Below, piece after piece: positions 687 to 53,282 of a stretch of DNA of 64,000 nt. The DNA lies in the NCBI GenBank assembly GCA_964058805.1, contig CAXKVV010002144.1:496001-560000 (forward strand), in the 5' to 3' direction. Positions within the stretch are counted from its first letter, which is position 1. The number at the start of each line of letters is the position of its first letter. A model generated the notes under the pieces. That model searched no databases. It saw only the letters and a program-made list of their open reading frames with translations, and was not told the DNA's origin. Both the position numbers and the translations under genes were made by a program. Source of the stretch: Schoenoplectus triqueter (Eukaryota; Streptophyta; Magnoliopsida; Poales; Cyperaceae).

Positions 687-1001
687 TGTGCGACCCTTTT
701 TCGCGCGCCGCCGCACCGCCGCCGGGCGATGGGTTTTGCGGAAGAAGGACACGGAGATCCCTCCCGAGCGTGCATCTGCTGGGTGTCGGCCGATTCTGCC
801 GTTTAGAGAGATTTGGATGCACATTCAGGGGGTTTTTTTAGTGATTGTGAGTTCTTGTAGATTCCGATGGGCGCAAGCCCCCACCGTTAATTACCCTGGG
901 CTACGAACCTCGAGGCACCTCTGGATCTTTGAAAGAGAGAAGCAAATAGTATAGTTAAAAGATGGTCAAGTGGTCGTCTAACTTCATAAAAAGGGGTCTA
1001 G

Positions 1002-1240
1002 GGAAGATGAACCTACAAACAGATCGGTTCAATCTATGGAAGACAAACCTACAAACAGATCGGTTTTGTCCTATGGAAGACGAACCTACAAACAGATCGG
1101 TTCAGTCTATGCCACCTCGAGATGTAACCTTACCTACAGACCAGGTTAATCTCTTTAGAGGGGCTTGAGGTGAGTCTACATACAGATCGACTCGACCTCC
1201 GTTGATCTAGAAGATAAACCTACAAACAGATCGGTTCAAT
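1002..1240. repeat. Short LTR repeats of 36-37 bp around CCTACAAACAGATCGG
   Basis: Three adjacent units start near 1002, 1038 and 1075. Each has a GGAAGA-A-C/G-AAACC opening followed by CCTACAAACAGATCGGTT. Further degenerate copies follow near 1130, 1175 and 1210. The same cluster occurs in the other outer LTR (about 46657-46895) and reversed in both inner LTRs (about 23430-23660 and 41560-41790). It lies in the transcribed part of the LTR, near its 3' end. Repeated protein-binding sites are possible, but nothing in the sequence proves this. Confidence 0.75.
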
Positions 1241-1971
1241 CTTAACTAGTCAACAACCAATCACACAAAATACAACTCGAAGCGCTGAGCCGGTTGATCT
1301 TGAGGTTGGTGAATCAGGAGAAGGGTGGATATGGCCCACGTGTTTCTTCTCACTGATCTTCTAGATCATGAATTCGAAGCACTAAGCTGATTCATAAACC
1401 TAGGAAACACAATTACACACAATGTCAAACCTGAAGCACTGAGCCAGTTCAACATTGAGGCATGTGTTAGTGAAGGAACCTACCTACAGAATGGTTCACA
1501 TTCACTGTTTTGTGGATGAATCTACTCACAGATCGATTCGATCTCACAGTCTCGGGAAATGAACTAGGAGACGAACTTATCGACGGATGAGTTCAGTCTT
1601 GCTAGCTCAAATGGTCATGAATTACTTGTTCATGACACCGAGTCATTAAGATGTCGCTTCGCTCGGACATCGTAATGTTCTTCTTCTTCAAAGTCGACAT
1701 ATCTCTCCATGCTGATGTCGTAGCTTTGGTCATTCTTCAGCGAGCGTCAAGATGTTCTTGTCTCGACTAATCATTCAATATGTTGCATTACTTGTGCAAA
1801 ATTACTATGTTGCCCTACACCCCTTTTGTGAGCGTATTCAATCATGAGTTACTTGCTCATGGCAGTGAGTCATTAAGATGTCACCTATCTAGGACATCGT
1901 AATGTTCTTCTTCTTCAGAGTTGACATACATCTCCATGTTAATATCGTAGCTCTGTTTATTCTTCATCAAA

Positions 1972-2165
1972 CGTCAAGATGTTCCTGTCTCGACATATTC
2001 CTTCATGTTGCTATCAAAGCCTTAATCATTCTACGTCAAGATGTTCTTGTCTCAACGTATCTTCTCATGTTGCTATCGAAGCTTTAGTCATCCTACGTCA
2101 AAATGTTCCTGTCTCGACGTATCTTATTATTCTTCATCAAGTGTCAAGATGTTCTCGTCTCGACT
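1972..2165. repeat. 62-bp tandem repeat in LTR
   Basis: Units begin with CGTCAAGATGTTCCTGTCTC at 1972, 2034 and 2096, an exact 62-bp period, with a partial copy near 2142 and related copies upstream near 1745. The same array is present in the second outer LTR (about 47626-47820) and in reverse in the inner LTRs (about 22435-22700). The small reading frames here repeat the same peptide and are products of the repeat, not genes. Confidence 0.8.
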
Positions 2166-2259
2166 AATCATTCTAAAGATTATATCATGTGTGCAAATAT
2201 TCTTATGTGGCTCCATACTCCTTATGTGAGCATATTTATTCATTTTCTGAAATGCACAA

Positions 2260-2304
2260 AGTCTATTATATAATATCTTCCATTATTATTTTTATTATAA
2301 AGAT

Positions 2305-2357
<53 letters not shown>

Positions 2358-3590
2358 TCTTATTATTTTTTTTATTATTATTTTTTTATTATATTTTTTT
2401 TATTATTATTATTATTATATTTTTTTTTATTTCTTAAACTCTATTTATCTATGTAGAAAAATTACTTACAAAAATAATAGGAAAAGGGGTTAGCTATTAA
2501 CTAGAGTTTCATTTATATTTTTGGAATTTTTATAATAGCTAAAATAGTAGAATTTTATTTTTATTATTTCTAAACTCTATTTATTTTGTAGAAAATCACT
2601 TACAAAAATAATAGAAAATAAAATGGCTATGATTTTTTATTTATATTTTCAAAATGTTTATAATAGCCAAAGTAATAGAATTTTATTATTATATTCTATT
2701 ATTCATTATGTAGGAATTATTTACAAATCAAAATATAGCTAACTATATTATTTTTTTTTAGTATTATTATTATTTTTTTATTATTATTTTTTTTATTTTT
2801 AAAATCCATAATAGCTAAAAGAAATCATTATTAATATTCTATTCCATTTATTATACTATTCATTATATATTTTTATTATTTCTATTTATAAGATTTTTTA
2901 TTATTACTATTATTAGTTGAAAAATAGCCATGAGAGATGAAATTCATTATATTTTTATTACAACTATTATTTTTATTGCATTTTTATTCATCAAAAGTAT
3001 TTTTGTTGTATATTTGTATAGAAATAACAAAAGAAATACAATTCATATTATAAAACTATATTATCATTCTTCATTATAAAAGAAAATGTATTTTACTATT
3101 TATTACCATGGTAGTATATTTTTGTATATATTTTGTACTATTTATTTTTATTATTCTTTTTACAGAAAATATCAACATAACATCTATTTTTATTTTATTT
3201 ATATTTTTTTTTATTTATCAAAGAATATAGCTAATCTCATTATTTATTATGGCATTTTACTATCATTATTATTTCATGGAAAATCACTTGAAAAATCACT
3301 AGAATATGTCTAGTTATTATTTATGATTTTTATTTGTATTTTTGGAATTTTTATAGTTTTTAAAATGACAAGTCAAAGCTAGGTCAAATATATCAATATA
3401 TATAATGTATTTTGCTTTTAAATTGTTTTATCATGATTATATTTTTAAAACTGGAATATTATTGTATAGAAAAATAGTATGAAAAATAAGAAAATTTTAG
3501 AAACAAATTTGAGTTAATTTGGAGTTCAGGAGCATTTTCAAATTATTTATTTATTCTATATTATTACTATTCTGTTATTATTTAATTACT
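2260..3590. other. AT-rich block of the LTR with (TTA)n microsatellite
   Basis: About 1.3 kb of almost pure A/T, including a (TTA)n run near 2311-2360 whose length differs between the two outer LTRs. Repeated short modules such as TAGCTATTATAAA-like and GTAAGTGATTTTCTAC-like words are shared with the inner LTRs. I see no gene. It is present at the matching place in all four LTRs. Confidence 0.7.
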
Positions 3591-4983
3591 GGGCCTAATC
3601 TGGGCCGTCAGATTTGCATCCAGATTATCATATACCTTTATTTCATTATAAACTTATTTGGGCCACTGGATCTGTTCCTGAGATTGGTGCACATTAGATG
3701 AAGGGCCCAGATCTTTATTTATTCAATCAGGCTTATTTGACTATGGATCACTTGGGCCATTAGATCTACTTTGAGATTCGCTCATCTGAGATGAAAGGTT
3801 TAGATCAACTCCTTCTTTTTCCTTTAAGCCGCGGTTTATAACTGACGTTGGATTCCTTTAAGATGTGTTTTCGCGCATCAAATCTCGTGTTCATGCGCTA
3901 AAAGTCGTGCACATTCGTCCCTCTGACTGTCCCATTGACCACTTCGCTGAGATTCGTGCAGGGAGTTGTTTTCGGTGACCGGAGCTCCATCTCCCCGATC
4001 AGATGGATTCAGCAGTGTCGCCTCTTTGTCAGGAGCACGTCCATGGCATCTGATTGAAGATCGGTGCGGTGCTTTAGTGTGTGTATGAGTACCATTTTCG
4101 GTACAGTTCAAATTCGGTACCGATTGAGTTTTCAATCGCGAATTTCACTCAATTGATTGATGAATCCTGCAATTGAACTTCTGTTACTGATCGCCTGTGT
4201 CTTCTGATCGTGTTTGTAAAGTCGAATTTTCTTTTGAGGTGTCGTGCATGGCCTATTCCACTTGAACGTTGTCGTGCACGGTACCGGTCACGCTAACTTC
4301 AATACTATACGATGAATTGCTCCAATTACACCGCTTCCTTGCACCTTGAACCAGTCTCAAGCTCTCAAGTCATCGTTTAGGCAAAGGAGTCGAGAGGAAT
4401 AGCTTATCCTTCTATCGACTCCATACTGACAGATCATCGGCCGATTTGGTGAATGGGAGAGTTGTGAAACTCTACTACCAATCCCGTTGCAGATTCAAAT
4501 GATATAGAAAAAAAGCGAAAGAACAGGTACATGTAATCATATGAAGCCTAAACCAAAAGATCAAATCTTTGCTTCTATGAAATACTGGTAATTTCCAAGA
4601 TTTAATCAAAAGAACATGAATTGAAAAGAAGAAAAAGGACAATGCGAGAAAGGCATAAAGAATCACACTGTAAACTAAAATTGGACAGAAAATAGCAAAT
4701 TATTTGATTATCCAATGCAAGAACTGATTTTATTGCACAGCTACAACTCTTCCCTAATCACATTTTCAATTTCATAGCAATACCTGCTTAGCAAACTTGC
4801 AAATGATGAATAGAACTTGTGAAGATTATAAATTGGATCGAATTGAGAGACTAGGTCTACTATCAATTGATCCAATTGCCTCTGTTCACTTTGCCTCACT
4901 CTCTCTCTTCTCCCTGCTGGTCTCTCTCTCTCTCTCTTAATTGCTGGAAATTTTCGAACCCCTTCTTCATTCTCTGTAGAGGG

Positions 4984-4991
4984 TTTATATA
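4984..4991 (-). promoter_or_regulatory. TATA box of outer 3' LTR
   Basis: On the minus strand the sequence reads GGCCTATATAAACCC, a strong plant TATA box. The inner LTR has TATATAAA in the equivalent place. The box lies about 2.65 kb into the LTR, which would put U3 at about 2.65 kb and leave about 4.3 kb of R plus U5. The start site was not mapped, so the U3/R border is inferred. Confidence 0.65.
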
Positions 4992-6230
4992 GGCCAAAAT
5001 ACAAGGTGTGAGAGAGGGTTTGTGTTTGTTCAATTCTTTGGATTGCTAATGTGGCACTCCATCTCACCTTTCATTTTACAAGCCAGTGGCCAGGATTGAC
5101 TCTCTTTGTGCTTCTTGATGTTAAGTCCACGGATTGATGACTTGGCAATCGACAGGTATAACAGATTGTGGCGGGTTAGTTATTGTTTTCCTTGTATTCA
5201 CCATCTTGCCATTTATAACTGCCATTTGCACTCCTTTCAATTCTTCTAGAACCTTCTCTGATCCAATTAACATTCGTCTAAATCAATTAATTGGGTCTAT
5301 ATATACTAATTAGGTGCCACTAGCGTTTTCCTTTCTGATTTGCCTTAATCCACTGCCAAAGCATCCTTCTTCATCTCTTTGCTTATTTCTCTAATTACAA
5401 GCTCATTCATGCCCCTTTTAGTCTCAGATATCAATTTCACACCTTTTCTTGAGATCCTATACTGTTGAGATCGAGTATTACAGATCTCTTCACTGACCCG
5501 AGTGGTGGACTGGTGTAGCACTAGGTTAGAGCTTCCCTCAAGTTAATCTAAGCTTCTGGATAGCATCGCAAAGGTTAGAACATTGCATAAGCACTGCCAA
5601 TTTGATCTCTTATATTTGTATGAGTCGATTACAAGTTTCAATTTTACAAGCTATCTTCGACCGATTCTCCATATTTCCTCTGCGGTTCATTGAAATTTGT
5701 TGCTTATGTATCTCTAATCCACTTTGCTTTGCCCATTCCAATCATATCCAGGGAACAAGAACACCTTTCAAAGCATCCCTCCATGGCACCTCCTTCTGTG
5801 TCGCGCGGAAGAAAAAGACGGAAGGGAAGGGAAGAAGAAGGAAGTAGTTTCGATCGGGATGGTCTAGGCGCATGTGAGCCGCAACAGCAAAGGGTCCACC
5901 GTCAGAGAGGCGTTACACAAGAGCCAGGTACTCATCTCCCTTCTTTGCTGTTTATTTAAATTTCAACTTTATTTGAATGGGCTTGGTTCATGCGCCTCTG
6001 TCTTATAATGCTTACAACCTGGCCCCACTTGTCAGGATTTAATCTTGCTGCTTAGCTAAGATTTAGGAATTGATCATCATTTAGCCTTAATTAGGGCCCA
6101 CATGTCAGTCATACAGGGTTTAAACTAATGACTTACACATAGCTAATTGGGATGATGTGTCACCAATCATGCTGTGACACATGTCAAATGAACTTGGCTG
6201 TGTTGGAATTAACCTGCTGATGTGCTATAC

Positions 6231-6420
6231 CACGTGTACTGCCATGTGGCAAGGTTGCTGAGATGGCCCTATCACCAGCTGCCACGTGGCATATCGGTGG
6301 GGTCCACTTCTTGGCTGACTTCACTGGTGTGGGGCCCACATGTGCTGAGGTGGTCCAATAGATGTGTGCCACGTGGCACATGTATGCTGACTTGGCTTAT
6401 CCTGGTGCTGCCACGTGGCA
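6231..6420. promoter_or_regulatory. Cluster of four G-boxes (CACGTG) in outer LTR U3
   Basis: CACGTG occurs at 6231-6236, 6283-6288, 6370-6375 and 6412-6417. The last three lie in the identical 12-bp palindrome TGCCACGTGGCA (6280-6291, 6367-6378, 6409-6420). CACGTG is the core site of plant bZIP and bHLH factors, including ABRE- and light-response sites. The cluster lies about 1.2-1.4 kb upstream of the LTR TATA box in element sense. The other outer LTR has the same set at 51870-52059. The inner LTR shows only one ACACGTGG near 18930. Confidence 0.7.
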
Positions 6421-7434
6421 CACCCTCTCTCCTCTGTTATTTTATATATTCTGTGTTCTCTTGTACCCAGTTTGCACCCAAAGAGGCCTCTGTCCCCAAG
6501 TTGCACCCAGAGTCATTTTGATCAAATCTCAGCTCTTGATTAATCCATTTAATCTGTTTTATCTTCTCTGAATTTATTTTAATAGCTCCACTTATCCAAA
6601 AATCATGAAAATTTCACCAAAAATCCCTAAATTCATGATGATCATCCCTGTAATTTTTAATTCCATTTTTGCCCCTTCTTCTCTGAATTAAAAATTCTTT
6701 TGTCAAATAAACCCTGTTATTCCTTATGAATTAATCCCTGATCTCAATTATAGCTCTGTGTCTCTGCCAATTATCTCCCTCTTGCAGAAACCACCCTAAC
6801 TAAATACCAATTAGACTTATATTGATATTCATTAGGGCTTGATTTGATCAAATGCTGACTACTTATCAGCAATTAATACAAATCTAGACTTGATCAGGTG
6901 GTTGCTCCCAGCTTTGGCACCTGATCAGTCTTGTGAAATTGACTTTCAATCCCTTAACATGAGGGTGACTTGGTCAAAGAACTGACTACTTATCAGTAAT
7001 TGACACAAATCAAAGCATGGTTAGGTGGTTGCTCGCAGCTTTGGCACCAGGTCAGCCTTGAAAGCAAAATCACATTTGGAATTTCTCATGACTAGTTGCA
7101 TCAAAATGCTAGCTTGGCATTGACATCATTTCATGTAGCATAGGGATTTTACTGTTTCAGCTCTTTTCTAGGGTTAGCTCCAAAGGCAGATTTTCAGGGT
7201 TCAATTCTGACTCCTTCAATAGGTCACTGAGGTGTGGGGTCCACCTGTTAGTGAAAATGGTCACATGGCTGACTCATCAAATAGGCTATATTGTTAGATT
7301 CATCTACAAGGGACTGCCAGGTGGGTCCCACTTATCAGAGAAAAATATAATCACATGGTGACACCCAAGAGATCTCCTCTCTCCCTCGATCTTCTTGGCT
7401 GTCACTCATGCTGAGTGGATAGAGAATAGTGGGG

Positions 7435-7442
7435 TATTTATA
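7435..7442 (+). promoter_or_regulatory. Possible TATA box for the opposite-strand PMD gene
   Basis: GGGGTATTTATACTC on the plus strand lies about 470 bp upstream of the first in-frame ATG of the PMD gene (7915), inside the end of the 3' LTR. If real, the LTR would drive this gene outward as an antisense promoter. It is one AT-rich word with no further support. Confidence 0.25.
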
Positions 7443-7638
7443 CTCTTCACTTCGTGCTCAGCATTCCATTGTGGGACTAATGGATTTGTTCCGGGGTTAG
7501 GCAGCGACCTCTCCTGATCAGTGGGCCATCTTCTCATTGCTCTCTCTCTTCTCCCCATTTCTTATGATTTATCATTAATCATCAATTCATTTTTCATTTA
7601 TTCATCTACTCATCCTTGAAATTTTTTAAGGGTAAACA

Positions 7639-7654
7639 AAGAGCCACCCACCAA
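7639..7654 (-). other. Candidate polypurine tract of outer element
   Basis: In element sense the 16 nt TTGGTGGGTGGCTCTT directly precede the 3' LTR terminus TGTTTACCC. The identical 16 nt precede the inner 3' LTR, although the sequence further upstream differs. Conservation at this exact place suits the plus-strand priming site, but the tract is G/T-rich and not a clean purine run. Confidence 0.45.
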
Positions 7655-7914
7655 GACGAGTCTTGAATGCTCGAAAGGCTTGTCTTGGTGCATTATTCCT
7701 TATTATTCATCATTTCATTTCTCATGACGTCTTCTCTTCTTCGGGTATTGTAGTTTCTTCTCATGACGCCATTCCGCGTCGCCCCTTGAGTCACTACCAT
7801 TCTTTTTACGAGGATCCTAGTGATTGGACTCCTCTCGTCTCAGCCATCCGAGCGACTCCTGTCTACCCGCGAGGCGGCGGCTTATTTTTCAGGGATGATC
7901 AGCCTCATGACATC

Positions 7915-10900
7915 ATGCCCCTTCAGCCCTTAGGCGTTGCTTCTACGGCTCCTTTGACACATCTCCTGGGCAAGGAGATTATCGACGGGGAGGCTCACAG
8001 ATGGACCACTGCCCCTTTCATCACTCCCTTAGAGTGCCATGATTATCAGCTAGAGTGGACCCGGTATATACTCATGCGGGAGAGGGTTATACTTGAGCGT
8101 ACTGGGATATACGACCCGATCTTTCTGTCGATGTTTCGCTATCATATCGACACACCCTGGTTGTGGGCCTTTTGCGAGAGGTGGAACTATTCCACCAACA
8201 CTTTGTTCATCGATGACCGGGAGCTGACTCCGACTCTTTTAGAGATACAGCAGTTGACAGGGCTGCCGATCTTTGGCTGGTTTTACGACGAGTTCATAGT
8301 CTCTCCTGCTGACTTGAGAGATCCATCTCGATTCCCGTCATCTTTACAGAGGGTGTATGATATATATCACCATTTGAGAGGGGGTCACTCTGGAGTCCCC
8401 TTCAGACATTGGATCGCCTATTTCACAGATCGAGTTCATACTCGTCCCGAGGGCTTAGCCTCTATTCGAGATCCTTTTGGTACAGGTCGGCTCGAGATTC
8501 ACTATGATGGCCCTACCCCTTCTCAGGATGCATTGTGCTCTCACGATATAGATCGGGAGACTTATCTGACCGCATTCATTTCCTGGTGGATCTGTTATTT
8601 TTTACTACCCAGCTCCCCAGCATACACCATCCGACCTTCTGTATTTGTCATGGCGAGTTTGATTGCACGCGGCAGCAGGATTTCCTTAGCAGTGCCTGTA
8701 TTGGCCAACATCTACAGGGGTCTTCGCGGTCTAATATCATCTCGTAGTCCTTCGAGATGTAGGGAGCTGATTCCATGGCATTTGGTTAGCGGCTGGCTTC
8801 ATATGCATTGGTCAGGTTCTTATGATCCTGGTATGGCTGCTTCACTGAGAGACCATTTACCTCTGTTGGGCGATTTAGCCGGAGTGCAGCCCACTTCTTT
8901 GACTCCCACAGATGCCAGATACAGATTTTATAGGAGTCGTGATCATCTGAGGTTTGCTCGAGATAGACTGATGACTCGCAGGATAGCCAGGACCGTGGAG
9001 AGGTCAGTGGTTGATAGCAGGGTTCCTTCTTCTGACCCTTCCAGCATTCGGGATAGACTGACTGACTTGGAGTACCTTGTTAGCATCCGCCAGGGTTTTC
9101 TTCCTTTTAGATCGGGTGATCACATATTCATTGAGCCCTATTCACCTCATCGGTGTGCACATCAGTTTGGGCTAGATCAGGATATCCCAGCGCCTCTTCT
9201 CCGTCCTGAGTTTTTGGCAGCTGACTTGGAGGGTGTCGGGTGGTGTTATACTCACCTCTTCCGACTAGGTACAGGTGTTCGTTGCCAGATGGTTTCCACT
9301 TCTCGAGTTCCCACTTTCTCGAGACGTTATCAGCAGTGGTACCATGATGCCATCCGCTCTTATCAGTCATACACTCCTCCTGTAGTTGCACGTATCACTT
9401 GCCCTCGCGACGGATATGTCTTTTCTAGCGGCGATATCTCATACGGCCGCTCTCTTTTCCCAGACATCACTGTAGAGCCTATTGATTTCCAGGGTTTAGA
9501 CAGCCGGTTTTCTCGTGCTCCTGTTAGGACTACTCTTACAGGTATACTTCATTATCCCTTTTAGGGTATTTCCTTTTGATAAGCCTCATCTCATTTCGAC
9601 CAATTCTCTTTTGATTCAGAGCTGGCTTATGAGTATGATCATGCGGAGCCCGGGTTCTCAGTCCCTCGTCCACGAGTAGTCGGCGCTCATTTCCAGTCAC
9701 ATGTCGAGCCACCGGCTTCAGCTACTATGGGGAGAGATCGAGACGGCGCTTCTCAGCCGTCTTCTCCATCTTCTTTTCCTTCTCCCACTCCGGGTGATTT
9801 TCTTTACTGACTCGCCTATCCTTATTTGAGCACACTTCATTTACATTTCTGATTAGGATTTATTTTTTAGCTCGTGATACATCTCTTATAGAGGTAGCTC
9901 AGGGTGACATAGCAGCAGCTCCATCGGCGCCTGCGAGCACTGCTATTTCAGGGTTCTGCACTGACCTTGCCGTCGCAGGTTCGTGTGCTTCATTTTAATA
10001 CCTAGTTGCCAGCATGCACTAGTATTTTTCATTCTTACACGCAGATTTTACAGACCCTGAGACCGATGACATGGCATCTCCACACCGCTCAGAGCCTTTC
10101 TTTTATGACGGCCCCGCTTCACCGTCGATCTTGCTGGTACCCATTGGAGACGGTGACTCATTCGATGTGGTTCTAGGGCCAGTGCTCACTCTTGTACGGT
10201 CAGAGGAGGCTTCTTTAGAGCAGGAGAGTCCATTGGCTGTCGAGCCCGCAGGCGACGAGCCATTATTGATTGAGGGAGGGCCATCTCACGCTTCTTCATC
10301 TCCTGACGAGCAGCCTCTCATGGCCACAGATAGCAGAGTCTCGACTGAGCGGGTTGCAGTCGATTATGACTCGGAGTTGGATGAGAGTTGGCTGGTGGAG
10401 CAGCTATTCCACAGCCCAGAGACGGGGGTTCCGGCTAGCGAGGGTCTTGCCGAGCCTCATGCTTCTCCCGGTACTTTATATTTCCTTTATCGTTTGCCCG
10501 TATTTTACTTTTCATGTACTTATGCTTCTTCATTTTATTTTGTAGCCGGGTCTGGTACACCTGTGGGTCCTCCTGAGGCGACCGACATCCCTATCCCTGA
10601 CTCAGTCCCGCCTGTCTCAGGCGACGAGGCGATAGGTTAGATCTTCTCTTCCTTCTATTTCTTCTTTGGTTATAACAATTTGTCTAACCCATTTATTTTA
10701 CTTGCAGATGTTACATCGAGGGATGTGCAGCTCGCCTTGGCCGCGCTGGCGGATGCACTCCGAGATACCTTCTTCGGGGGCTATCCGCTAGATTTCGAGA
10801 TCTTGGACTCTCTGCCCAGTGGTTTCTCTTTTGACTGGTATGGGCTGATGCGGGATACCATCGCGCCAGCTCTACTCATTGCACCTCGTCTCGAGAGCAC

Positions 10901-11318
10901 TTTCATTTCCAGGAGGTGTGAGGAGTTGCTCAGGATTTACCAGGATGCGAGCTCTCTCGTATACCAGCATGAGTTGGAGATTCATGAGCTACGCAGGCAT
11001 TTGGAGGCTGCTCGACTCCACTATCTTCAGCGGCTCTCTTCTTGTGCCACTCTCCGCTCCATGGGAGTCAGTGGTGGGCCCGCTCGACTGCTCGTGCAGG
11101 AGCTAGAGGACCATAGATTATCAGTGGAGGGCTTCTCCCGACATCTAGCGGGACGTCTCCCAGAGTTGCAGATTCACATGAGCGCCCGGGATAGTGCCTT
11201 CGCTCAGTTCTTGGATTTCGAGGCAGCTTCAGAGGAGGATAGGCACTCCCTTCATGTTCATTTGGAGACTATTAGTACTGTGCTATTAGAGTTGGAGTCC
11301 CGCTTTTTGGGCCCATAG
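7915..11318 (+). CDS. Opposite-strand spliced gene with plant mobile domain (PMD), about 1,011 aa
   Basis: Six exons can be read: 7915-9541, 9620-9793, 9871-9978, 10045-10470, 10546-10635 and 10708-11318. Each intron (65-78 bp) has GT...AG ends and each splits a codon after its first base, so the frame stays open to the stop at 11316-11318. Residues about 86-121 show the PMD hallmark: ERWN, then TNTLF, then LTPTLLEIQQLTGLPIFG. A second block near 221-270 (FISWW, then ARGSRISLAVPVLANIYRGL) matches the later part of that domain. Exons 2-5 are acidic and Pro/Ser-rich, and exon 6 is helical and charged. The PMD is shared by MAIN-type plant proteins and several transposons; its role in retroelements is unknown. 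The gene runs against gag-pol. The frame is open from 7636 but the first ATG is 7915, so a 5' exon may be missing; TTGTAG ending at 7753 would be a phase-1 acceptor. Confidence 0.82.
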
Positions 11319-13068: not shown

Positions 13069-16000
13069 CTATGTGTAGTACTTCTTCAGATATCGCCCAT
13101 TAATCGGTGGCATGGGCCTTTCACCTTCATGGTCTATGAGTTGGTATGCGCCGCCCCCGTATACCTTCTCAATTACATATGGCCCTTCCCAGTTCGGAGA
13201 GAATTTCGGGCCGATGTGCCGGCCAATAATCGGCCTCTTAAGGACAAGAACAAGCTCCCCTTGTTGAAATGCCCTGACTCGCGCCATTTTGTCATATGCC
13301 CTTGCCATTTTTGCTTGATATATTTCGAGGTTCTGCTGGGCTATCAGTCTCTTCTCGTCCATGGCATCCAACTCGTCCAGTCTAAGTTGTTGGCATTCGT
13401 CCATGGTCATATCATTTTGCATAGCCACCCGCAATGATGGTAATTCCACCTCGAGAGGGAGAACGGCTTCAACCCCAAAAGCCAGAGAATATGGGGTAGC
13501 TTGCGTAGGTGTTCGGTACGTGGTCCGATAAGCCCATAATGCCTCCTGTAGACGATTATCCCAGTCTCGTTGGTTGCCGTCCACGGTCTTCTTCATGATA
13601 TTTATTAGGGTTTTATTAAAGGCTTCGGCCAGGCCGTTGGCTCTCGGGTTGTAAATGGACGAGAATCTCCAATCAATATTGAATTGCTCCGCCAGGGCAT
13701 AGACTTTAGAGCTCTTGAAGGCTGTCCCGTTATCGGATATTATTCGTTGCGGTGTGCCGAATCGGTAAAGGATGTGCGTCTTGAAGAACTTAACCACATC
13801 GGACGCTTTAACTTCTTTGAGTGGGATGGCTTCAGCCCATTTTGTAAAGTAATCTGTTGCCGCCAGGATGAACCGGTGACCTCTCGACGTCGGAGGGTCT
13901 ATGGGTCCCACTATGTCTGTGCCCCACATATTAAATGGCCAGGATGCTACCGTGGGGTGCAACGGGTTTGGCGCTTGATGTATAAAAGGGCCATGTATCT
14001 GGCACATGCGGCACTTCCTTGCGTGCTCTTCACAATCAGCCACCATCGTGGGCCAATAATACCCCATTCGCTTGATTTTTAACTTCATTTTCGGCCCAGA
14101 CTGATGTGCTCCGCATAGTCCAGAATGAACTTCTTTCATAACCTGCTCGGCTTCAGGCCCTGATACACATCTTAGCCATAACTGATCATAAGACCTACGG
14201 TATAGCGTATTGCCCACATACGCATACCGTAGTACCCGTTTTCTTAGTTGATCAGCTATTCTTTTATCTTTGGGTAGGGTGCCATGCCGGAAATATTCGA
14301 TGAACGGCTGTCTCCAATCATCGTCTTCAGCTATCATTGCTTCTTGGCATTCTACCTTTTCTAGCCCAGCATTTTCATTATTCGCCTCATCTGTTGTTTG
14401 ACACAATGATAATGGCCTTCTATTGCGGACGATGATGTGGATTTCCGGCTCTGTTGGTTCACCCAGCTCTTTGAATTCGCCAATTATTTGATTTATTATC
14501 AGCTGTGAATCCCCAAAGATACGCACAGCCTTGACTTCCAGCTCCAATGATAGCTCTAGTCCAGCGATAAGTGCCTCATACTCTGCTTCATTATTTGTAC
14601 ATGGTTCAGTTAAAGTCAGAGAATGTCGTATTATCCCGCCCTCTGGGGTTACGAAGACCAGTCCTGCGCCAGCTCGCACAGTTGGGACTCCTGGGCCCGC
14701 GATCGGCTTAATCGACGAGGCACCATCAAAGTACATCTCCCATATAGGACTTCCTTCTTCAACATGTAGGGTTTCCTCGTCAGGAAAGTCACATTTTAAT
14801 GGGGAGTCATCTTGAATCGGGTGTGCAGCCAGGAAATCTGCTAGCGCCTGCCCCTTTATCGCCTTTTGCGGTGTATAGGTGATGTCGAACTCGGTAAGAA
14901 TGATAGCCCACTTGGCCAGCCTACCCGTCAGCATTGGCCGAGTCATTAGGTATTTAAGAGGGTCCACCTTAGATATTAATATGATTTTGTGGGCTAGCAT
15001 GTAATGCCTCAATTTCTTCACCGCGAAGATTAGGGCTAGACAGTGCTTCTCGATCGGTGAATACCCGTGTTCTGCCCCTACCATCATGCGACTTAAGTAA
15101 TATAGCGCATTTTGGTTACCATCCTGGTTTTCTTGTGCCAATAGGGCTCCCAAGGATCCATCTAGGGCGGTTGTATATAGGATGAGCTCCTTTCCGGGTA
15201 TGGGCGCCGCCAATACTGGAGGGTTGAGTAGATATGCCTTGATTTCTTCAAAGGCTCGCTGACACTCGCCATCCCACTTAAACGGGATATTCTTCTTAGT
15301 CAGCCGGGTGAAGGGTTGGATTTTACCCGATAGGTTGGCTATAAACCGCCTAATGTACGCCAATTACCCTTGCAAGGATCGCAATTGTTTTAAATTCTTT
15401 GGCGGGGATAGTTCGGTTATTGCTTTGATTTTGCCCGGGTCTATTTCGATTCCCCTATGGCGTACCACAAACCCCAGAAATTTACCGGATGATACCATGA
15501 ATGCGCATTTCAACGGGTTTAATTTGAGCGCATGTTCTCTCAGGCGGTTGAAAACGACCTCAAGGTATTGGAGGTGTTCTTCATATGTCATGGCCTTGAT
15601 GACTAGGTCGTCCACATAACATTCTACTATTTTGTGGATCAGATCGTCGAATATTTTCGTCATCGCCCGTTGGTAGGTGGCTCCCGCATTTTTGAGCCCA
15701 AACGGCATGACTTTGTAACAATATATGCCAATCGGCGTGCGGAATGCCGTATGCCTTTCATCTTCTGGCGCCATTTTGATTTGATTATAGCCCGCATAAC
15801 CGTCCATGAAGGAGAAGACTTCATAGGAGGATGTATGATCAATTATGATTTCGGTTACTGGGAGCGGGAAATCATCTTTAGGGCATGCCTTGTTTAAGTC
15901 CCGAAAGTCCACGCAAATGCGGATTTGCCCATTTTTCTTCTTAACCGGGACGATGCTAGCCACCCATTCTGGCGTCTCTTCTTCCCGTATGAAGCCGGCG

Positions 16001-18078
16001 TCGATGAGTTTCTTTGTCTCCTCCACGACCTTTTCTTCGAGTTCTATTCTCATTCGCCTCGGCGCTTGTTTAATCGGCTTGAAGGTTGGATCAATTTTTA
16101 AGTAATGAACCGCTACATTGGGATCTAATCCAGGCATTTCTTTATAACTCCAAGCGAAGCAGTCCATATAGTTTTTAAGGAACATCTTCAACCTGTCAGC
16201 CACTTCTTCTGGCAAAGACGCGCTTATGAATGTTGGTCGTGGGTCTTCTTCCGTCCCCAGATTGATTTCAGCTAACTCATCGACCGTATTAGGTTCTTTT
16301 TCTAGCTGTTTCAGAGCATTTTTCAGGACTGGGGTATTATCCTCTTCTGTTTCATTATCCGGCATTTCAACAGAAGTCATACAGCAGTTCTCTTCCATAC
16401 GGTACTCGTTGAGAGACACCTCAAAACATGATGCGTCATCGCAGTTATACCCTAACCCCCGGGTGTATTTTATTTTGCCATCCAGGCCCAGGACTTTATT
16501 CTGGCCGCCATTCCAGAGTTCATCGAAGCGCTTGGCCTCGGTCTTGGATATGTCTCTCAGACATTTTGCCCTTTTTGCCAGTTTATACAGCTCCTTTCCA
16601 AAGGGATGAGATGCAGCGTCATCGCTCGTTGCATTCTCCGATTCTTGTTCTATCACCCACTTTTTCCAAGTGTTGTGATCAGGGTTCTTCAGAGACTGAG
16701 TTGAATCGCTCTGATAGAAAATTATAGCCTTGTGGATGATAGTTTTCCCTTTGATGCGCTCTACCTTTGCCGGCACAACAAAGGTCTTTAGGGTTTGGAT
16801 GTGGTTCACTTCCCTTGGCATGAGGTCTTTAAAATGCCTTTCGGGAACCGCAGTAATCTCTAGCGCTGCCATCTCCTCTTCTATCTCAATATTCATGACT
16901 GAGTTGGAGCGGTAGATTTCTTTGATCGGCTTACGTCTCGCAACTTTAGGTTTGCTAGGTACGGGAGTGTGCGAGATCGTATAAGCAACCCCTTTGCCTT
17001 TGTTATTCGAGTTGTGCGGAGCTGGGTCTTGTTGACAACTTTTCGGGAGTTGGATTGTCCCGTTTCTATGCCCTTCTTCTATTAGGTCTTTGAATACCCA
17101 ACATTCTTCAATTGTATGGCCCAATATGTGATGATAAGGGCAGAATTCGCCTTCACCGGCTCTTTCTATGTCGGCGGGTCTTTTACAAACGGGAAGTGTC
17201 AATCCGCTCTTTAGGGCCTGCTCAAATATCCGAGCTGTTTTATTTTTCAGGAAAGAGTATGGTTTACTCTTCTTGACCTTGAGAGTTTGCATGACGGTCG
17301 GTTGCTTAGCTTTCGTTTCTTCCCCCTTTGATTCATCTACTATGACAATTACCCGTTTGCCGCTATCGGGTGCTTGTCTTTCGGGGGTCCCGGAACGGGG
17401 TTCGCTCGTCATTTCTTTGAGCAGCTCGGAATTATAGATCGCGGTTTGTAGGTATTCAATCATTATCATGATTTCATTGTGCTGCACCTTGATATCTTGC
17501 ATCACTTCCCATTGTTCAGACACCTCTCTCCTATTATTTTCAACCTGGTGTCTTATTTCATCGATCGCATTCCAGACGCGACCTTCAAAATTTTCCCGCC
17601 ATGAGCGCTCTTCATTTATTTGCCTCGGCCTAACCGGGTTATCCCTTCCGCTACCGGGTCCCGTGTTGATCATATATGACTCCTCACTTTCATTATCTGT
17701 TTCGGACCCTTTATATGGCTTCTTGAGGATGTGATAAATGATCTCTTCGTCAGACTCCTCTTCCCAGGGTTGACGATCATGGCCAGATTCTTCTCCCGAG
17801 GTGGTATCGCCCGGGTTGTTAGAATCTTCGGAGTCTTCTCCTGAAGTTGCCTCTATGATCTGAATTTGAGGGGTGTTGGCAGGCTTAAAATTGAAAATGA
17901 CCTCCTCTTCAGAATCACTTGCATTTATTTCGCTCGGTGTTATTTGGGCCTTATACGTAGCCACCTGTTTAAAGCGGAAGGTTGCTTCTTCACCCGACTT
18001 TCTTCCGGGTCTTTGGGCTCGAGCACCTCGGGGTTTAATATTAAATTTGACCTCTTCTTCTTCTCCGGATGAGGTATC
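13069..18078 (-). pseudogene. Outer gag-pol, 3' part: second CHHC knuckle, RT, RNase H, integrase (broken)
   Basis: This is the downstream part of the outer polyprotein gene, cut off from its 5' part by the inner element at 18078/18079. It is colinear with 28206-33347 of the inner element apart from 132 missing bases. In order it encodes an acidic linker, a second CHHC knuckle (FCPYHHILGHTIEECWVF), RT with YVDD and TAFRTPIG, the gypsy RNase H, an archaeal-type RNase H with YFDGASS, an integrase with HHCC and D,D35E residues, and a C-terminal WEGPY module. Two further lesions are visible: codon 15366-15364 reads TAA where the inner copy has CAA, and an in-frame 132-bp loss at 14469/14470 removes the NGEADALA part of the second RNase H. 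The frame is otherwise open and the integrase is complete. Its stop is at 13069. Confidence 0.92.
18074..18078. repeat. Target-site duplication of inner element, left copy (GTATC)
   Basis: GTATC precedes TGTTTACCCC at 18079 and recurs at 42251-42255 directly after the other LTR end. The continuous target is visible in the inner element's own gene at 28206-28210 (reverse complement GATAC), where the flanks match the two sides of the insertion. Confidence 0.95.
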
Positions 18079-19635
18079 TGTTTACCCCTGAAAGGTTGAA
18101 GGAAGAAATACAAGAGAGAAAGCCAAGATCAAACCCTATGAGCTGAAGCAGTACAATCCCTGTACTACATGGAATAGTATCAATGCCAAGCCAGTATTTT
18201 GATACAACCAATCATGAGAAATCCTAATATGATTTTTGCTTTCAAGGCTGACCTGGTGCCAAAGCTGCGAGCAACCACCTAACCATGCTTTGATTTGTGT
18301 CAATTACTGATAAGTAGTCAGTTCTTTGACCAAGTCACCCTCATGTTAAGGGATTGAAAGTCGATTTCACAAGACTGATCAGGTGCCAAAGCTGGGAGCA
18401 ACCACCTGATCAAGTCTAGATTTGTATTAATTGCTGATAAGTAGTCAGCATTTGATCAAATCAAGCCCTAATGAATATCAATATAAGTCTAATTGGTATT
18501 TAGTTAGGGTGGTTTCTGCAAGAGGAAGATAATTGGCAGAGACACTGAGCTACAACTGATAAATAGGGATTTTATAAGAAGAAAATAGGGTTTTATTGAT
18601 CAAGAAATTTTTAGCATAAGAAAACAGGGGTAAAATGGGAATATAAAAATATAGGGGTGATCATTATGAATTTAGAGAATTTTGGTGAAATTTTCATGAT
18701 TTTTGGATAAGCAGAGCTGATTAAAATAAATTGGAGAAGAAAATCAAAGCAATCTGAAGGCTGGGATTTAATCAAAGGGCTTATGGGTGCAACTTGGGGA
18801 CAAAGACCTCACTTGGTGCAAGTTGGGGCTGCCAAATAAAGAGCCGCTAATTTAGGCGCTGGGAGATCTGTTTGAAAGAGTAACAAACCGCGTGAACTCG
18901 GTGCACCATTGTTATATCTCATTAAACCTGACACGTGGGACCAGACCATGTACGCCTAGTCCACCCGGATTGCATTACCCCTCTTTGTCCCTTCTTTCGC
19001 TGCCAAGGGGACCCACCAAAACAGAAAATCATCTCCCTCTTCTCTGGCGAATTCTTCTCTGCCGACTTGAGTTTTCAACAGAAGCAAACCGAAAAATGGA
19101 AGGAGGCTCAATCGGCGACGAAAAATTACAAACTTTATATCATTAGAGAGCCCTTGATGAGGAGAACTTGATGAAGCAATCGCCACTCAATTTAATATAC
19201 TGTGCATCACTCGCACTCAATGAGTGAAGAATCGGGTATAAAGTTCAATTGGGCGATTTGGGGAACAATCAAACAAATTGACGGCTTAGAAAACCTCATG
19301 TGGGACCCACGATTCGGTTGAGACCGTTACTGGCACAAAAATCGTTGCTCATTGTATAATTGCCTTGGTGGGATTGGTGCACACAACCGAAACCAGTAAA
19401 ATTGAAGATTTCATCCTGGTTTTTGAGAAAGAGGAGCAGGGAAGAATTAAGCTACGATTACTGTGCCAAGCTGGCAATCCATATCCTAGAGCCTACTTGC
19501 AACAAACACAACTGAAACTCATCTACACCCTCCAATTGAGTGATCAAGGGCTATGATCATGCCATGTCAGTGATCTGTGGCACCTAGGAAGCACAGATTA
19601 TGCGAGAATAAACACAATTAGCCACTGCCAAGCTC

Positions 19636-19643
19636 TATATAAA
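19636..19643 (+). promoter_or_regulatory. TATA box of inner 5' LTR
   Basis: GCTCTATATAAACTC is a strong plant TATA box. It lies 1.56 kb into the LTR, with about 4.5 kb of LTR downstream, and corresponds to the TATA of the outer LTRs. Transcription of the element probably starts about 30 bp downstream, which would give a very long untranslated leader of R plus U5. Confidence 0.65.
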
Positions 19644-22255
19644 CTCTAGACATCAATTGAAAGGAGGAGGAGAGATTTTTAGTGATCAAGGCAACCATAC
19701 ACCTCCACACCAAAATCAGTTGAGACAGGTTCATATACATACCATTCTCTACAGTAAGAGCCCCAACCAAGCAGTCTTAATTCGGTAGAGAGAGAGTTAG
19801 TTCTGGAGAGATAGCCATTTCCATTAAGAGCAAAAGAATCAGTAGAAGAGGGAGATAATAGAGTTTACCTATAGAATAAAAATTGCTGTAATAGAGTATA
19901 GGTAGATCTGATACCATTAGGATCAACTCCATTCTTGTGAATTGAAGAGTGAATAGTTGCATTATAAGCAAAGGTTAGTAATTTTCATTACTGTTTCTTC
20001 TTTCCACTCTTTTTTTCTTTTTCTTTTCTTTTGCAAATTCAACTCAGTACAAGATTAACCCTAGAGCTGACATCCAGTGAGCCACTGGCCCAATCACAAA
20101 GTGATTGGTGTGCCTTTAGGCCTGGATCAGCTATCATTATCAAGAATCCAAAAGGTAAAACAGGTATTTCTTACTCAATCAAGAAGAAGAACAAGAAAGG
20201 GTTAGTAGAAGAGCAAATGCATTGCCTCCTAACCATCACCCACAGCTGGTAGAAGACTAAAGTCTCCCAGTTTCTAATTAGTGTCTGATTTGATTAAAGT
20301 TGGAATACAATCTGAAAATCAGCAAAGGTGATTGAAATATGCAATGTTTGATACTGACAGACAGCATAAACCAATGTTTGAGCTATGTAACATAGTAATT
20401 AGCACTAAGATCACAAGAATCAATCAAGAATTAGCTTAATTAAGCATTTGAATCTAAGGAGTCAGGGCCAGGAACTTTTCGGTACCGAAATGGTACTAAG
20501 CAACAAAACGGTACAGGCTCAGCTGGCTATCCATCTTACTGATGCACTCAAAAAAGATACCGCTGTACTCATCTTGCTCCGACGACGCTCCTGACATCGG
20601 CCGATCATTGATCAGACACCGGGAAAGACCGGTGAGGCCTACCTGCACTAATCTCAAAGAAGTCAAGAATAGAAGTGTTGGGACAACCTTGTTGCACGAC
20701 CCTGGAAGCAGGGGCGCGAATCTTGAAGTCGTTGCACGAATCTAAATAGGAATTTAATGACATCCGTGAAGAGAGAAATTGAGATAAAGCCGAGGCCTAT
20801 CTCAACCCTCCATCTTCCTTTTTAACTGATCTTGAGGCAAATCTAATGGTTTAGGATATTAATAGGTTAAGGGTCGGCCCAATAATAGAAGAAAGGAAGT
20901 AGAGTGAACTTGGGCCCAATCAATAGAAAGAAAGAACAGGAAATTAAGACAGGCCCAACTCAGAGAAAAATAACGAAATGGGCCCAGTAGTTAAGAAAAA
21001 ATTAATCTCGGCCCAATCTGTTAAGCCCAACTGATAAATAATAACAGAACATTAATTATATATAGTAAATAAATGATTTGAAAATGCTCCTGAACTCCAA
21101 ATTGACTCAAATTTGTTTCTAAAGTTTTCTTATTTTTCATACTATTTTTCTATACAATAATATTCCAGTTTTAAAAATATAATCATAGTAAAACAATTTT
21201 AAAGCAAAAGACATTACACATATTGGTATATTTGACCTAGATTTGACTTGTCATTTTAAATACTATAAAATTCCAAAAATACAAATAAAAATCATAAATA
21301 ATAACTAGATATATTTTAGTGATTTTTCAAGTGATTTTCCATGAAGTAATAATGATGATAGTAAAATACTATAAAAAATAATGAGATTAGCTATATTCTT
21401 TGATAAATAAGAAAATAATAATAATAGTAATAGATATTATATTGATATTTTTCTGTAAAAAGAACAAAAATAAATAGTACAAAATATATACAAAAATATA
21501 CTACCATGGTAATAAATAGTAAAATGCATTTTCTTTTATAATAAATAATGATAATATAGTTTTATGATATGAGTTGTATTTCTTTTATTTCTATACAAAC
21601 ATATACAATAAAAAATATACTTTTGATGAATAAAATGTAATAAAAATAATAGTTGTAATAAAAATATAATGAATTTCATCTCTTATGGCTATTTTCAACT
21701 AATAATAAAAAAAATCTTATACTTTTCTATAGATAATAAATAGAAATAATAAAAATAGATATAATGAATAGTATAATAAATAAGATAGAATATTAGTAAT
21801 GATTTCTTTTTAGCTATTATAGATATTAAAAATAAAACAAAAATAAAGAAATAATAATAAAAAAATAATAAAAATAATAATAGTAAAATAGTATAGCTAA
21901 CCACCTTTTAATTTTGTAAATGATTCTTACATAATGAATAGTATTTCAATATAATAGAATATAATAATAAAATTCTATTACTTTGGCTATTATAAACATT
22001 TTAAAAATACAAATAAAAAATCATAGCCATTTTATTTTCTATTATTTTTGTAAGTGATTTTCTACAGAATAAATAGAGTTTAAAAATAAAATTTTACTAC
22101 TTTAGCTATTATAAAAATCCCAAAAATATAAATGAAACTCTAATTAATAGCTACCCCTTTTCCTATTATTTTTGTAAATAATTTTCTACATAGATAAATA
22201 GAGTTCAAGAAATAAAAATAATAATAATAAAAAAAATATAATAATAGTAATAAGA

Positions 22256-22299
<44 letters not shown>

Positions 22300-23975
22300 A
22301 AATGCATCTTCATAATAAAAATAATAATGGAAAATATTATATAATAGACTTTGTGCATGTTAGAAATGAATAAATATACTCATATAAGGAGTGTAGAGCC
22401 ACATATGAATATTTGCACACATTTAGAATGATTAGTCAAGACAAGAACACCTTGACGTAGGATGATTAAGGCTTCGATAGCAATATGAAGAAGATACGTT
22501 GAGACAAGAACATCTTGACGTGAGATGATTAAGGCTTTAATAGCACCATGAGAAGATATGTCGAGACAAGAACATCTTGACACTTGATGAAGAATAATAA
22601 GATACGTCGAGACAGGAACATCTTGACGTGAGATGAATAAGGCTTTGATAGCAACATGAAGGAACATGTCGAGACAAGAACATCTTGACACTTGATGAAG
22701 AATAACCAGAGTGGCGACATCAACATGGAGAGATATGTCGACCCTGAGGAAGAAGAACATTACGATGTCCTAGATAGGTGACATCTTAATGACTTACCGC
22801 CATGAGCAAGTAACTCATGATTGAATACGCTCACACAAGAGGTGTAGGGCAACATAGTAATTTTGCACAAGTAATGCAATATGTAGAATGATTAGTCGAG
22901 ACAAGAATATCTTGACACTCGCTGAAGAATGACCAAAGCTACGACATCAGCATGGAGAGATATGTCGACTTTGAAGAAGAAGAACATTACGATGTCCGAG
23001 CGAAGTGACATCTTAATGACTCGGTGTCATGAACAAGTAATTCATGACCATTTGAGCTGGCAAGACTGAACTCGTCCGTCGATGAGTTTGTCTCCTGGCT
23101 CATTTCCCGAGACTGTGAGATTGAATCGGTCTGTAGGTAGATTCATCCACAAAACAGTGAATGTGAACCGTTCTGTAGGTAGGTTCCTTCACTAACACAT
23201 GCCTCAATGTTGAACTGGCCCAGCGCTTCAGGTTTGACATTGTGTGCAATTGTGTTTCCTAGGTTTATGAATCGGCTTAGTGCTTCGAATTCATGATCTA
23301 GAAGATCGGTGAGAAGAAACACGTGGGCCATATCCACCCTTCTCCTGATTCACCAACCTCAAGATCAACCGGCTCAGCGCTTCGAGTTGTATTTTGTGTG
23401 ATTGGTTGTTGACTAGTTAAGATTGAACCGGTCTGTTTGTAGGTTTATCTTCTAGATCAACGGAGGTCGAGTCGATCTGTATGTAGACTCACCTCAAGCC
23501 CCCTATGAAGAGATTAACCTGGTCTGTTGGTAAGGTTACATCTCGAGGTGGCATGGACTGAACCGATCTGTTTGTAGGTTCGTCCTCCATAAGACAAAAC
23601 CGATTTGTTTGTAGGTTTGTCTTCCATAGATTGAACCGATCTGTTTGTAGGTTCATCTTCCGTAGACCCCTTTTTATAAACTTAGACGACCACTTGACCA
23701 TCTTTTAACTATACTATTTGCTTCTCTCTTTCAAAGATCCAGAGGTGCCTCGAGGTTCGTAGCCCAGGGTAATTAACGGTGGGGGCTTGCGCCCACCGGA
23801 ATCTACAAGAACTCACAATCACTAAAAAACCCCCTGAATGTGCATCCAAATATCTCTAAATGGCAGAATCGGCCGACATCCATCAGATGCACGCTCGGGA
23901 GGGATCTCCGTGTCCTTCTTTCGCAGAACCCATCGCCCGGCGGCGGTGCGGCGGCGCGCGAAAAAGGGTCGCACA

Positions 23976-24121
23976 GGATCTGGCACGCCCAGTGGGACTA
24001 TCAAAATAAACTCAGGGAATAATAAGATTTGGATGCATATACGGGAGGGATCTCCGTGTCCTTCTTCCGCAGAACCCATCGCCCGGCGGCGGTGCGGCGG
24101 CGCGCGAAAAAGGGTCGCACA
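23976..24121 (+). repeat. 146-bp LTR-terminal duplication with embedded PBS
   Basis: An LTR-end sequence (GGGTCGCACA, ending at 23975) is followed by GGATC and a PBS-like TGGCACGCCCAGTGGGAC at 23981-23998. Next comes about 45 bp of leader-like or foreign sequence, then a second copy of the last ~100 bp of the LTR ending again in GGGTCGCACA at 24121. The same arrangement is in the 3' LTR (42105-42250). The outer LTR ends at the first terminus, so the extension is specific to the inner subfamily and has been copied through at least one replication cycle. Confidence 0.88.
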
Positions 24122-24126
24122 GGATC

Positions 24127-24144
24127 TGGCACGCCCGGTGGGAC
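24127..24144 (+). other. Primer-binding site of inner element
   Basis: TGGCACGCCCGGTGGGAC begins 5 nt after the LTR terminus. The leading TGG is complementary to a tRNA CCA tail and the remainder would pair with an acceptor and T stem. The outer element has the identical 18 nt. I do not assign the tRNA species from memory. Confidence 0.8.
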
Positions 24145-24260
24145 CTAGATTCTCCTCTTATCTCTGAAAGAGAGAGGCAAATAGAATAATTAAGAGATAC
24201 AAGTGGTCTTCTATGTGCTAAAATGACTAATGATTTTCAAGTATTTTTGTTTTGCAGGAA
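24145..24260 (+). other. Untranslated leader of inner element with splice-acceptor-like end
   Basis: It contains one arm of the inverted repeat (24160-24213) and ends in a pyrimidine-rich tract, TTTTTGTTTTGCAG, three bases before the gag ATG at 24261. The outer element has an equivalent T-rich tract and CAG at its gag start. This looks like a 3' splice site, so the subgenomic or genomic RNA may be spliced into the gag start. No donor can be chosen with confidence. Confidence 0.5.
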
Positions 24261-33200: not shown

Positions 33201-33347
33201 ATCGGCCCGAAATTCTCTCCGAACTGGGAAGGGCCATATGTAATTGAGAAGGTATACGAGGGTGGCGCATACCAACTCATAGATCATGAAGGTGAGAGGC
33301 CCATGCCACCGATTAATGGGCGATATCTGAAGAAGTACTACACATAG
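24261..33347 (+). pseudogene. Inner gag-pro-pol polyprotein, 3,028 codons, with one in-frame stop in integrase
   Basis: One frame encodes all replication functions. By residue it has a basic Pro/Gln-rich N-terminus, a coiled coil (about 391-436) and a capsid-like gag core near 579 (FQWYYSL). A CHHC knuckle (C802, H805, H810, C815) is followed by the aspartic protease (VDAGSS, D1167) and an acidic linker. A second CHHC knuckle starts at C1628. RT has YVDD at 2136-2139, followed by the gypsy RNase H. The archaeal-type RNase H has D2433, E2481, D2505 and D2555. The integrase has H2677, H2684, C2715, C2718, D2747, D2808 and E2844, with WEGPY near the end. Codon 2798 (32652-32654) is TGA where the outer copy reads CGA, between the first two integrase catalytic aspartates. 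In RT, TAFCTPIG replaces TAFRTPIG. The start is chosen because MAxFGNF is the first Met shared by both copies. Confidence 0.93.
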
Positions 33348-36057: not shown

Positions 36058-36190
36058 GTTGCGCTCATGAGAAGAATCTGATTAAAGGAAAATCTATCGA
36101 AGTCTAGCCTGAACCCGAGGAGGAGAGAGGTGTGTCGGATATGTGCACCAAAGCAGGCCCTTCAAATTGCCAAATTCTTCAGGACCCGCT

Positions 36191-36206
36191 TTGGTGGGTG
36201 GCTCTT
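36191..36206 (+). other. Candidate polypurine tract of inner element
   Basis: TTGGTGGGTGGCTCTT lies directly before the 3' LTR start TGTTTACCCC and is identical to the 16 nt before the outer 3' LTR. It is G-rich but not a classic purine run. Confidence 0.45.
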
Positions 36207-40384: not shown

Positions 40385-40428
<44 letters not shown>

Positions 40429-46200: not shown

Positions 46201-46248
46201 TTCCTGCAAAAACAAAAACACTTGAAAATTATTAGTCATTTTAGCGCA

Positions 46249-47958: not shown

Positions 47959-47994
<36 letters not shown>

Positions 47995-50622: not shown

Positions 50623-50630
50623 TTTATATA
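50623..50630 (-). promoter_or_regulatory. TATA box of outer 5' LTR
   Basis: The minus strand reads GGCCTATATAAACCC, as in the 3' LTR. It is the likely core promoter of the outer element. Confidence 0.65.
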
Positions 50631-53277: not shown

Positions 53278-53282
53278 CCGCC
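53278..53282. repeat. Target-site duplication of outer element, right copy (CCGCC)
   Basis: Directly follows the LTR terminus GGGTAAACA and matches 682-686. The satellite monomer continues from it. Confidence 0.93.

Follow-up and report, generated by a model that had tools for sequence, protein, structure and literature searches.

Genes encoding a plant mobile domain (PMD, Pfam PF10536) have been found in 57% of Ogre elements (PMC6317226), and there are PMD clades that are encoded exclusively by Gypsy elements (PMC5418596); in PMC8616336 the function of the PMD itself is given as unknown. We analysed a stretch of 64,000 nucleotides from Schoenoplectus triqueter (Cyperaceae; contig CAXKVV010002144.1, positions 496,001 to 560,000), hereafter the window, which holds two nested long terminal repeat (LTR) retrotransposons of one family, element A on the minus strand and element B on the plus strand. 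Element A carries an antisense PMD gene, located on the strand opposite to gag-pol in the interval from pol to the 3' LTR.

The extra open reading frames (ORFs) of Ogre and the Gypsy PMD-A genes resemble this gene in that a Tat element carries PF10536 in an additional gene, but an antisense orientation, six phase-1 introns, a start within the LTR and a swapped PMD are not described in the portions of PMC6317226 and PMC5418596 considered. A literature search, with subscription papers outside its scope, likewise brought up neither swapped PMDs nor a spliced PMD gene in antisense orientation, some of which Steinbauerova 2011 may report. Antisense genes between pol and the 3' LTR are known from Retand (TRP28 ORFs) and Grande (gene23) (PMC11963269, PMC7264820); the Retand ORFs differ in encoding a Transposase_28 domain, and the term intron is absent from PMC11963269. 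VANC21 and VANC6 of VANDAL share with the window gene a predicted fold, the location on an element, introns and same-orientation motif arrays (PMC5735166). They differ in belonging to a DNA transposon and in carrying DUF1985 and DUF287 instead of a PMD, and function has been demonstrated for VANC whereas it is predicted for the window gene. MAIN and MAIL1 also contain a PMD, but are host silencing genes.

The sequences directly support a seven-exon anatomy (less surely for exon 0), purifying selection, deeply different types of the N-terminal PMD module on elements that are otherwise nearly identical, and the existence of PMD-null copies. We see in it a genuine spliced accessory gene of an Ogre-like LTR retrotransposon, and give about even chances to the whole reading, in which its product would be a DNA-binding anti-silencing protein of VANC21 fold that acts in trans.

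Structure and conservation of the antisense gene

A first-pass annotation of the window had proposed a PMD gene with several exons, lying antisense in a Tat-type element between its pol and 3' LTR, with five GT-AG introns of 65-78 bp, all in phase 1, in one continuous frame. We recovered all of these features, but exon 1 had been read from 7636; the conserved protein reaches upstream to about 7754, and a further exon followed by a phase-1 intron is indicated upstream. All parts of the revised gene model are on the plus strand:

7435..7442, plus strand: candidate TATA box TATTTATA, inside the LTR; TTTATA in 43/43 copies, local divergence dip
7480..7495, plus strand: exon 0 (indicated), ATGGATTTGTTCCGGG, encoding MDLFR and the first base of the next codon
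7496..7753, plus strand: intron 0, 258 bp, phase 1, spanning the border of LTR and internal region
7754..9541, plus strand: exon 1, holding the PMD; PF10536 match, codon-position bias
9542..9619, plus strand: intron 1, 78 bp, phase 1, GT-AG
9620..9793, plus strand: exon 2, joined frame, splice sites kept in copies
9794..9870, plus strand: intron 2, 77 bp, phase 1, GT-AG
9871..9978, plus strand: exon 3, joined frame, splice sites kept in copies
9979..10044, plus strand: intron 3, 66 bp, phase 1; AG not seen in 8/41 copies
10045..10470, plus strand: exon 4, longer by 8 or 13 codons in some copies
10471..10545, plus strand: intron 4, 75 bp, phase 1, GT-AG
10546..10635, plus strand: exon 5, joined frame, splice sites kept in copies
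10636..10707, plus strand: intron 5, 72 bp, phase 1, GT-AG
10708..11318, plus strand: exon 6, conserved C-terminus, stop at 11316-11318; dN/dS 0.08

The exons as first read (the first one from 7636) join in a single frame with one stop, which is terminal. Exons 1-5 have lengths that are multiples of three, and all six introns, intron 0 included, are in phase 1. No ORF of at least 150 amino acids was found on the opposite strand at the gene region. A search of the same genome with exon 1 gave at least 69 scored matches, 59 of the 69 without internal stop; since the best 69 of 213 candidates were scored, these counts are lower bounds.

Splice sites were compared between the window copy and 40 other copies fetched with flanks from the same genome. 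Among copies reaching the respective site, GT donors of introns 1 to 5 were present in 41/41, 41/41, 41/41, 40/40 and 39/39, and AG acceptors in 41/41, 40/41, 33/41, 39/40 and 39/39; the first-pass expectation that other family members keep these sites thus holds for most of the 41 copies. Of the eight exceptions at the intron 3 acceptor, one (L051) ends there with its contig and the others have AA, GG or AT. The spliced frame is fully open in 28 of the 41 copies, contains stops or a shift in 11 and is cut by contig ends in two; in 21 of the 28 open frames the twelve splice dinucleotides, with those of intron 0, are also all as expected. In the 39 copies complete to the gene's end, exon lengths (exon 0 counted) equal those of the window copy or exceed them by 24 or 39 nt, with the exception of L021 (-28) and L028 (-80, in exon 6), while intron lengths drift. 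Distinct gap patterns numbered four per 3,194 bp of exon, three of them multiples of three, and 34 per 368 bp of intron, with four such cases.

The third codon position is the most variable one in every exon (15 copies of PMD type I and 19 of type II, see below). The ratio of nonsynonymous to synonymous divergence (dN/dS) between the two types, computed from largely undamaged copies (9 of the 18 of type I and 17 of the 22 of type II), was 0.08 in the PMD core, 0.33 in exons 2-3, 0.21 in exon 4, 0.43 in exon 5, which is short, and 0.08 in exon 6. Antisense transcripts can yield small interfering RNA, as discussed in PMC7264820, and it could be argued that the antisense RNA is what counts and the open frame is incidental. 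We find this barely credible given dN/dS of 0.08-0.43, frame-keeping exon indels and kept splice sites, and its strong form is refuted by the substitution pattern. Judged by these patterns the antisense gene is no artefact: it codes for protein, is spliced and evolves under purifying selection.

The introns do not appear to be copies of each other, the local scores of 10/10 pairs lying inside the shuffled range. For intron 1, the same place and phase are indicated in eight homologues of 38-68% identity. Their open frame has at this place a Gly followed by residues resembling intron read-through, as is expected from G/GT at phase 1, so the arrangement of intron 1 would be older than the element family of the window.

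Gene start and candidate promoter

The ATG at 7915 was rejected as the start, because among nine homologues (P0002-P0010) only P0003 and P0004 have M in this column, the other seven lacking it, and because the two type III copies show T in that position. Homologues from other sources align well upstream of this ATG, with the conserved protein reaching to about 7754, and codon bias extends upstream as well (7754-7914: 0.016, 0.011 and 0.085 at positions 1, 2 and 3). Two other start models were judged by eye and also rejected. For an ATG at 7667, which is kept in 13/43 copies, the donors at 7682 and 7688 both give the wrong phase, and an in-frame start upstream of 7636 is blocked by a TAA.

Exon 0 within the LTR has its ATG and its length of 16 nt in 43/43 copies and a phase-1 GT donor in 39/43. 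The sequence TATTGTAG at 7753 gives a phase-1 acceptor, whose AG is kept in all 41 copies that belong to types I, II and IV; the two type III copies use their own AG for intron 0, likewise in phase 1. Divergence is 0.085 in the TATA box and 0.07 in exon 0. The stretches immediately before them have 0.22 and 0.16, and the one that follows exon 0 has 0.10. Frame-shifting indels in L027 (+1) and in L028 and L029 (-2) fall within 7639-7753, that is, in intron 0. As neighbouring ATGs are nearly as well kept as that of exon 0, we consider an exon 0 at 7480-7495 with a phase-1 intron 0 probable. The predicted product, MDLFR-VSSHD..., is encoded by 3,213 nt and has 1,070 amino acids.

PMD domain and predicted fold

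The PMD hallmarks noticed in the first-pass annotation were borne out by a profile search, in which the product matched PF10536 with E 4.7e-26 and 92.2 bits, the cut-off being 34.9. PF10536 was the sole profile matching this protein (P0001) at E 0.01; the DUF1985 profile gave no match, for which reason the protein is not filed as VANC. The predicted structure of the element PMD, based on an alignment (A2) of 75 of 132 proteins, has the VANC21 fold, and VANC21 was also the best Foldseek match (E 0.098) of a first, poorer model. The PMD takes up residues 106-583 of the model. A viral structure library gave no match below E 2.1, and a search of PDB sequences none below E 0.42.

L057, a small protein encoded in the same genome, matches both the DUF1985 and the PMD profile, each below the curated cut-off. 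Bridging proteins of this kind suggest that DUF1985 and PMD may form one superfamily. Our literature search, subscription papers again lying outside its scope, found nothing pairing DUF1985 with the plant mobile domain, and no paper on a VANC21 structure turned up.

Relationship to host PMD genes

In a PMD tree of 38 rows, 21 element-type PMDs were split from 16 genic PMDs and one PMD of a Mutator-like element (MULE) with support of 100/100. Two of the rows, P0012 and P0103, are long and unsure, P0002-P0012 are called element-type by similarity and not by surroundings, and MAIN, MAIL1 and published PMD-A reference sequences are not among the rows. Between element and genic PMDs lie two branches of about 2 changes per column, and their identity is 14-21%. 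Two host genic PMD genes (L009 and L011) have an intron before the PMD that is in phase 0 and at a different place from the element introns. The closest named protein homologues are from Carex and Rhynchospora.

The first-pass annotation had concluded that a host PMD gene was captured together with its introns. The gene does have ordinary plant introns and there are genic PMDs too, and the reasoning that antisense introns survive passage through a sense RNA intermediate is sound, the 40 fetched copies retaining them. However, the separate clade and the host introns, which differ in place and phase in the two genes, speak against capture from a present host gene, and intron 1 at the same place in the eight homologues indicates an arrangement that predates the family. 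Capture during the history of this element family is therefore very improbable in our view. The PMD family may have begun in either host or element, a question that Ikeda 2017 (PMC5418596) left undecided.

The same distances bear on a decoy function, in which the element PMD would mimic host PMDs of MAIN/MAIL1 type and spoil their complex, e.g. with PP7L, without binding DNA. MAIN and MAIL1 act in silencing of transposable elements and interact with PP7L (PMC7156037, PMC8616336), element PMDs have been proposed as a counter-silencing strategy (PMC8616336), and genic-type PMDs are present in the host. With element and genic PMDs so far apart, however, surface mimicry is not obvious, and the VANC21-like predicted fold points to DNA, so that we regard a decoy as unlikely.

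The host genic PMD gene L009 (contig C1629, about 2690 onward) runs into sequence resembling the LTR end of the window's element family (TGTTTACCCTTGAAAG...) and thus appears cut by an insertion. Further PMD-like places (profile about 128-295), with several in-frame stops, occur on C42, C39, C971, C1850 and other contigs of the genome (G000). This set is not close to the element PMD, L056 from C971 giving weak matches only.

PMD types and PMD-null copies

The copies of the gene fall into types that differ in the following block:

8036..9510, plus strand: PMD core, divergent between type I and type II; in type III the divergent stretch is about 7650-9700

Within this block types I and II differ mostly by 15-37% per 100 bp, and outside it mostly by 1-20% in the copies profiled. 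The core has a synonymous divergence (dS) between the types of 1.5; in the flanks this value is 0.15-0.25, close to that within types. An Fst-like index of 18 type I and 22 type II copies, L030 left out, ranged from 0.69 to 0.88 over 7936-9586 and did not exceed 0.12 elsewhere. Type III (L053, L054) has 65% identity in exon 1 and about 86-90% in exons 4-6, with edges near 7650 and 9700; at least 20 exons of this kind score 92-100% against L053 and two more 81-83%. A fourth, closer type is represented by L030.

Pol does not follow PMD type. Pieces of a 764-amino-acid pol stretch are 96-99% identical among the copies listed, and near-identical pol lies about 5.3-5.5 kb from a PMD of type I (C2043, C68, C404), type II (C264, C443, C2079) or type III (C1816, C751, C422, C884, C1095, C914). 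A PMD-null form is common: the LTR-edge stretch of element B recurs, with 96-100% identity, at 30 or more other places (a lower bound, from the best 40 of 316 candidates). The distance from the end of pol to the end of the LTR is 1,991-1,996 bp in nine of them (C51, C159, C326, C357, C618, C1000, C1045, C1846, C2077) and about 5,450 bp in element A, so that null elements miss about 3.5 kb, which is about the length of the gene. The elements thus have a common replication machinery, while the PMD comes in one of several versions or is absent. Element B, which is younger because it is nested in A, is without PMD, and this suggests that the gene may be dispensable in cis.

A mosaic from assembly chimeras is unlikely, because the same edges are common to copies on many contigs. 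The first-pass proposal that uniform phase 1 makes the exons interchangeable cassettes was right in that something is exchanged, but exon shuffling at intron borders was rejected, as the divergent blocks have their edges in intron 0 and in exons 1 and 2. The LTR occurs in two quite different sequence variants at 7120-7430, upstream of the TATA block that the copies keep, which indicates that LTR parts are reshuffled too. We saw no link between this upstream variant and PMD type, variant a occurring in 6/18 type I copies, with the window copy counted as type I, and in 8/22 type II copies.

An accessory role unlinked to silencing, such as nuclear import, packaging or integration targeting, would fit a C-terminal exon that is as strongly conserved as the PMD; Grande gene23 is nuclear, and other antisense extra ORFs are without assigned function (PMC7264820). 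Many gene-less copies share their pol with carriers, however, so that such a role would have to be in trans or dispensable. We consider it rather doubtful.

The carrier element and its surroundings

The elements and their parts are arranged as follows:

687..7638, minus strand: 3' LTR of element A, 6,952 bp, 99.47% identical to 46341-53277, TG...CA ends, target site duplication (TSD) CCGCC at 682-686
1013..1539, plus strand: array of seven same-orientation copies of CTACNNACAGATCGNTTC in the LTR, with at most 2 mismatches; candidate target array, predicted only
13069..18078, minus strand: pol of element A in two ORFs, one with reverse transcriptase (RT), one with RNase H, additional RNase H and integrase
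18079..42250, plus strand: element B, nested in A; LTRs 18079-24121 and 36207-42250, 99.69% identical, TSD GTATC
35093..35866, minus strand: antisense-gene remnant in element B, comprising exons 5 and 6, intron 5 and the adjoining part of intron 4
42256..46340, minus strand: gag and protease of element A, separated from its pol by element B
46341..53277, minus strand: 5' LTR of element A, TSD CCGCC at 53278-53282

Element A has the LTRs, TSD, gag, RT and integrase of a Ty3/gypsy element. An additional RNase H (RVT_3, 229-298) lies between RT_RNaseH (56-159) and Integrase_H2C2 (404-457). This domain fits Ogre/Retand as classified in PMC6317226 and the PMD fits Ogre, so that element A appears Ogre-like, of Tat type. 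Element B inserted into A between protease and RT. Its gag, protease and RT are in one 2,806-codon frame, unlike pea Ogre. All four LTRs have seven CTACNNACAGATCGNTTC copies each.

The gag-pol frame of element B (24234-32654) contains KKSKPYSF...CPYHRI(I/L)GH(S/T)IE(D/E)CWVFKD twice, an apparent internal duplication with one copy before the protease motif and the other between protease and RT, and is broken at 32654. Pol of element A lacks, at 14472, 129 bp of B (31814-31942), in frame, between RNase H and integrase. The insertion site of element A is a 58-bp satellite array at 217-686 and 53283-64000, for which Tandem Repeats Finder gives 113 copies at 53277-59844, with more beyond; the TSD CCGCC lies within the repeat unit.

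Proposed function

In the anti-silencing reading, transcription would start from an antisense promoter in the 3' LTR (TATA at 7435, ATG at 7480), and the transcript would be spliced to encode a nuclear protein of about 1,070 amino acids. The PMD with its predicted VANC21 fold would bind DNA of the element, probably the repeat arrays of the long LTRs, and thereby remove or block silencing. The protein would work in trans and could be exploited by PMD-null copies. PMD types would represent alternative specificities for DNA or host targets, with promoter, linker and C-terminus common to all; the versions may spread among elements by recombination during reverse transcription, and versions with different targets would persist side by side. 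A wider view, which we hold as possible but short of probable, is that PMD and DUF1985/VANC are one fold and one family, that Ogre-type elements carry a spliced, VANC-like anti-silencing gene in antisense, whose DNA-recognition module is swapped between elements as types that exist side by side and is exploited by null copies, and that the silencing proteins MAIN and MAIL1 are host relatives of this counter-defence domain of transposons.

A survey based on ORFs only would miss the extent of such a gene, as it is split by introns and has its apparent start inside the LTR. As to the reason why Ogre elements carry PMD genes, the predicted VANC21 fold and the bridging sequences make a DNA-binding, anti-silencing role testable, and the swapped PMD types and null copies in near-identical elements of one genome provide natural variants for such a test.
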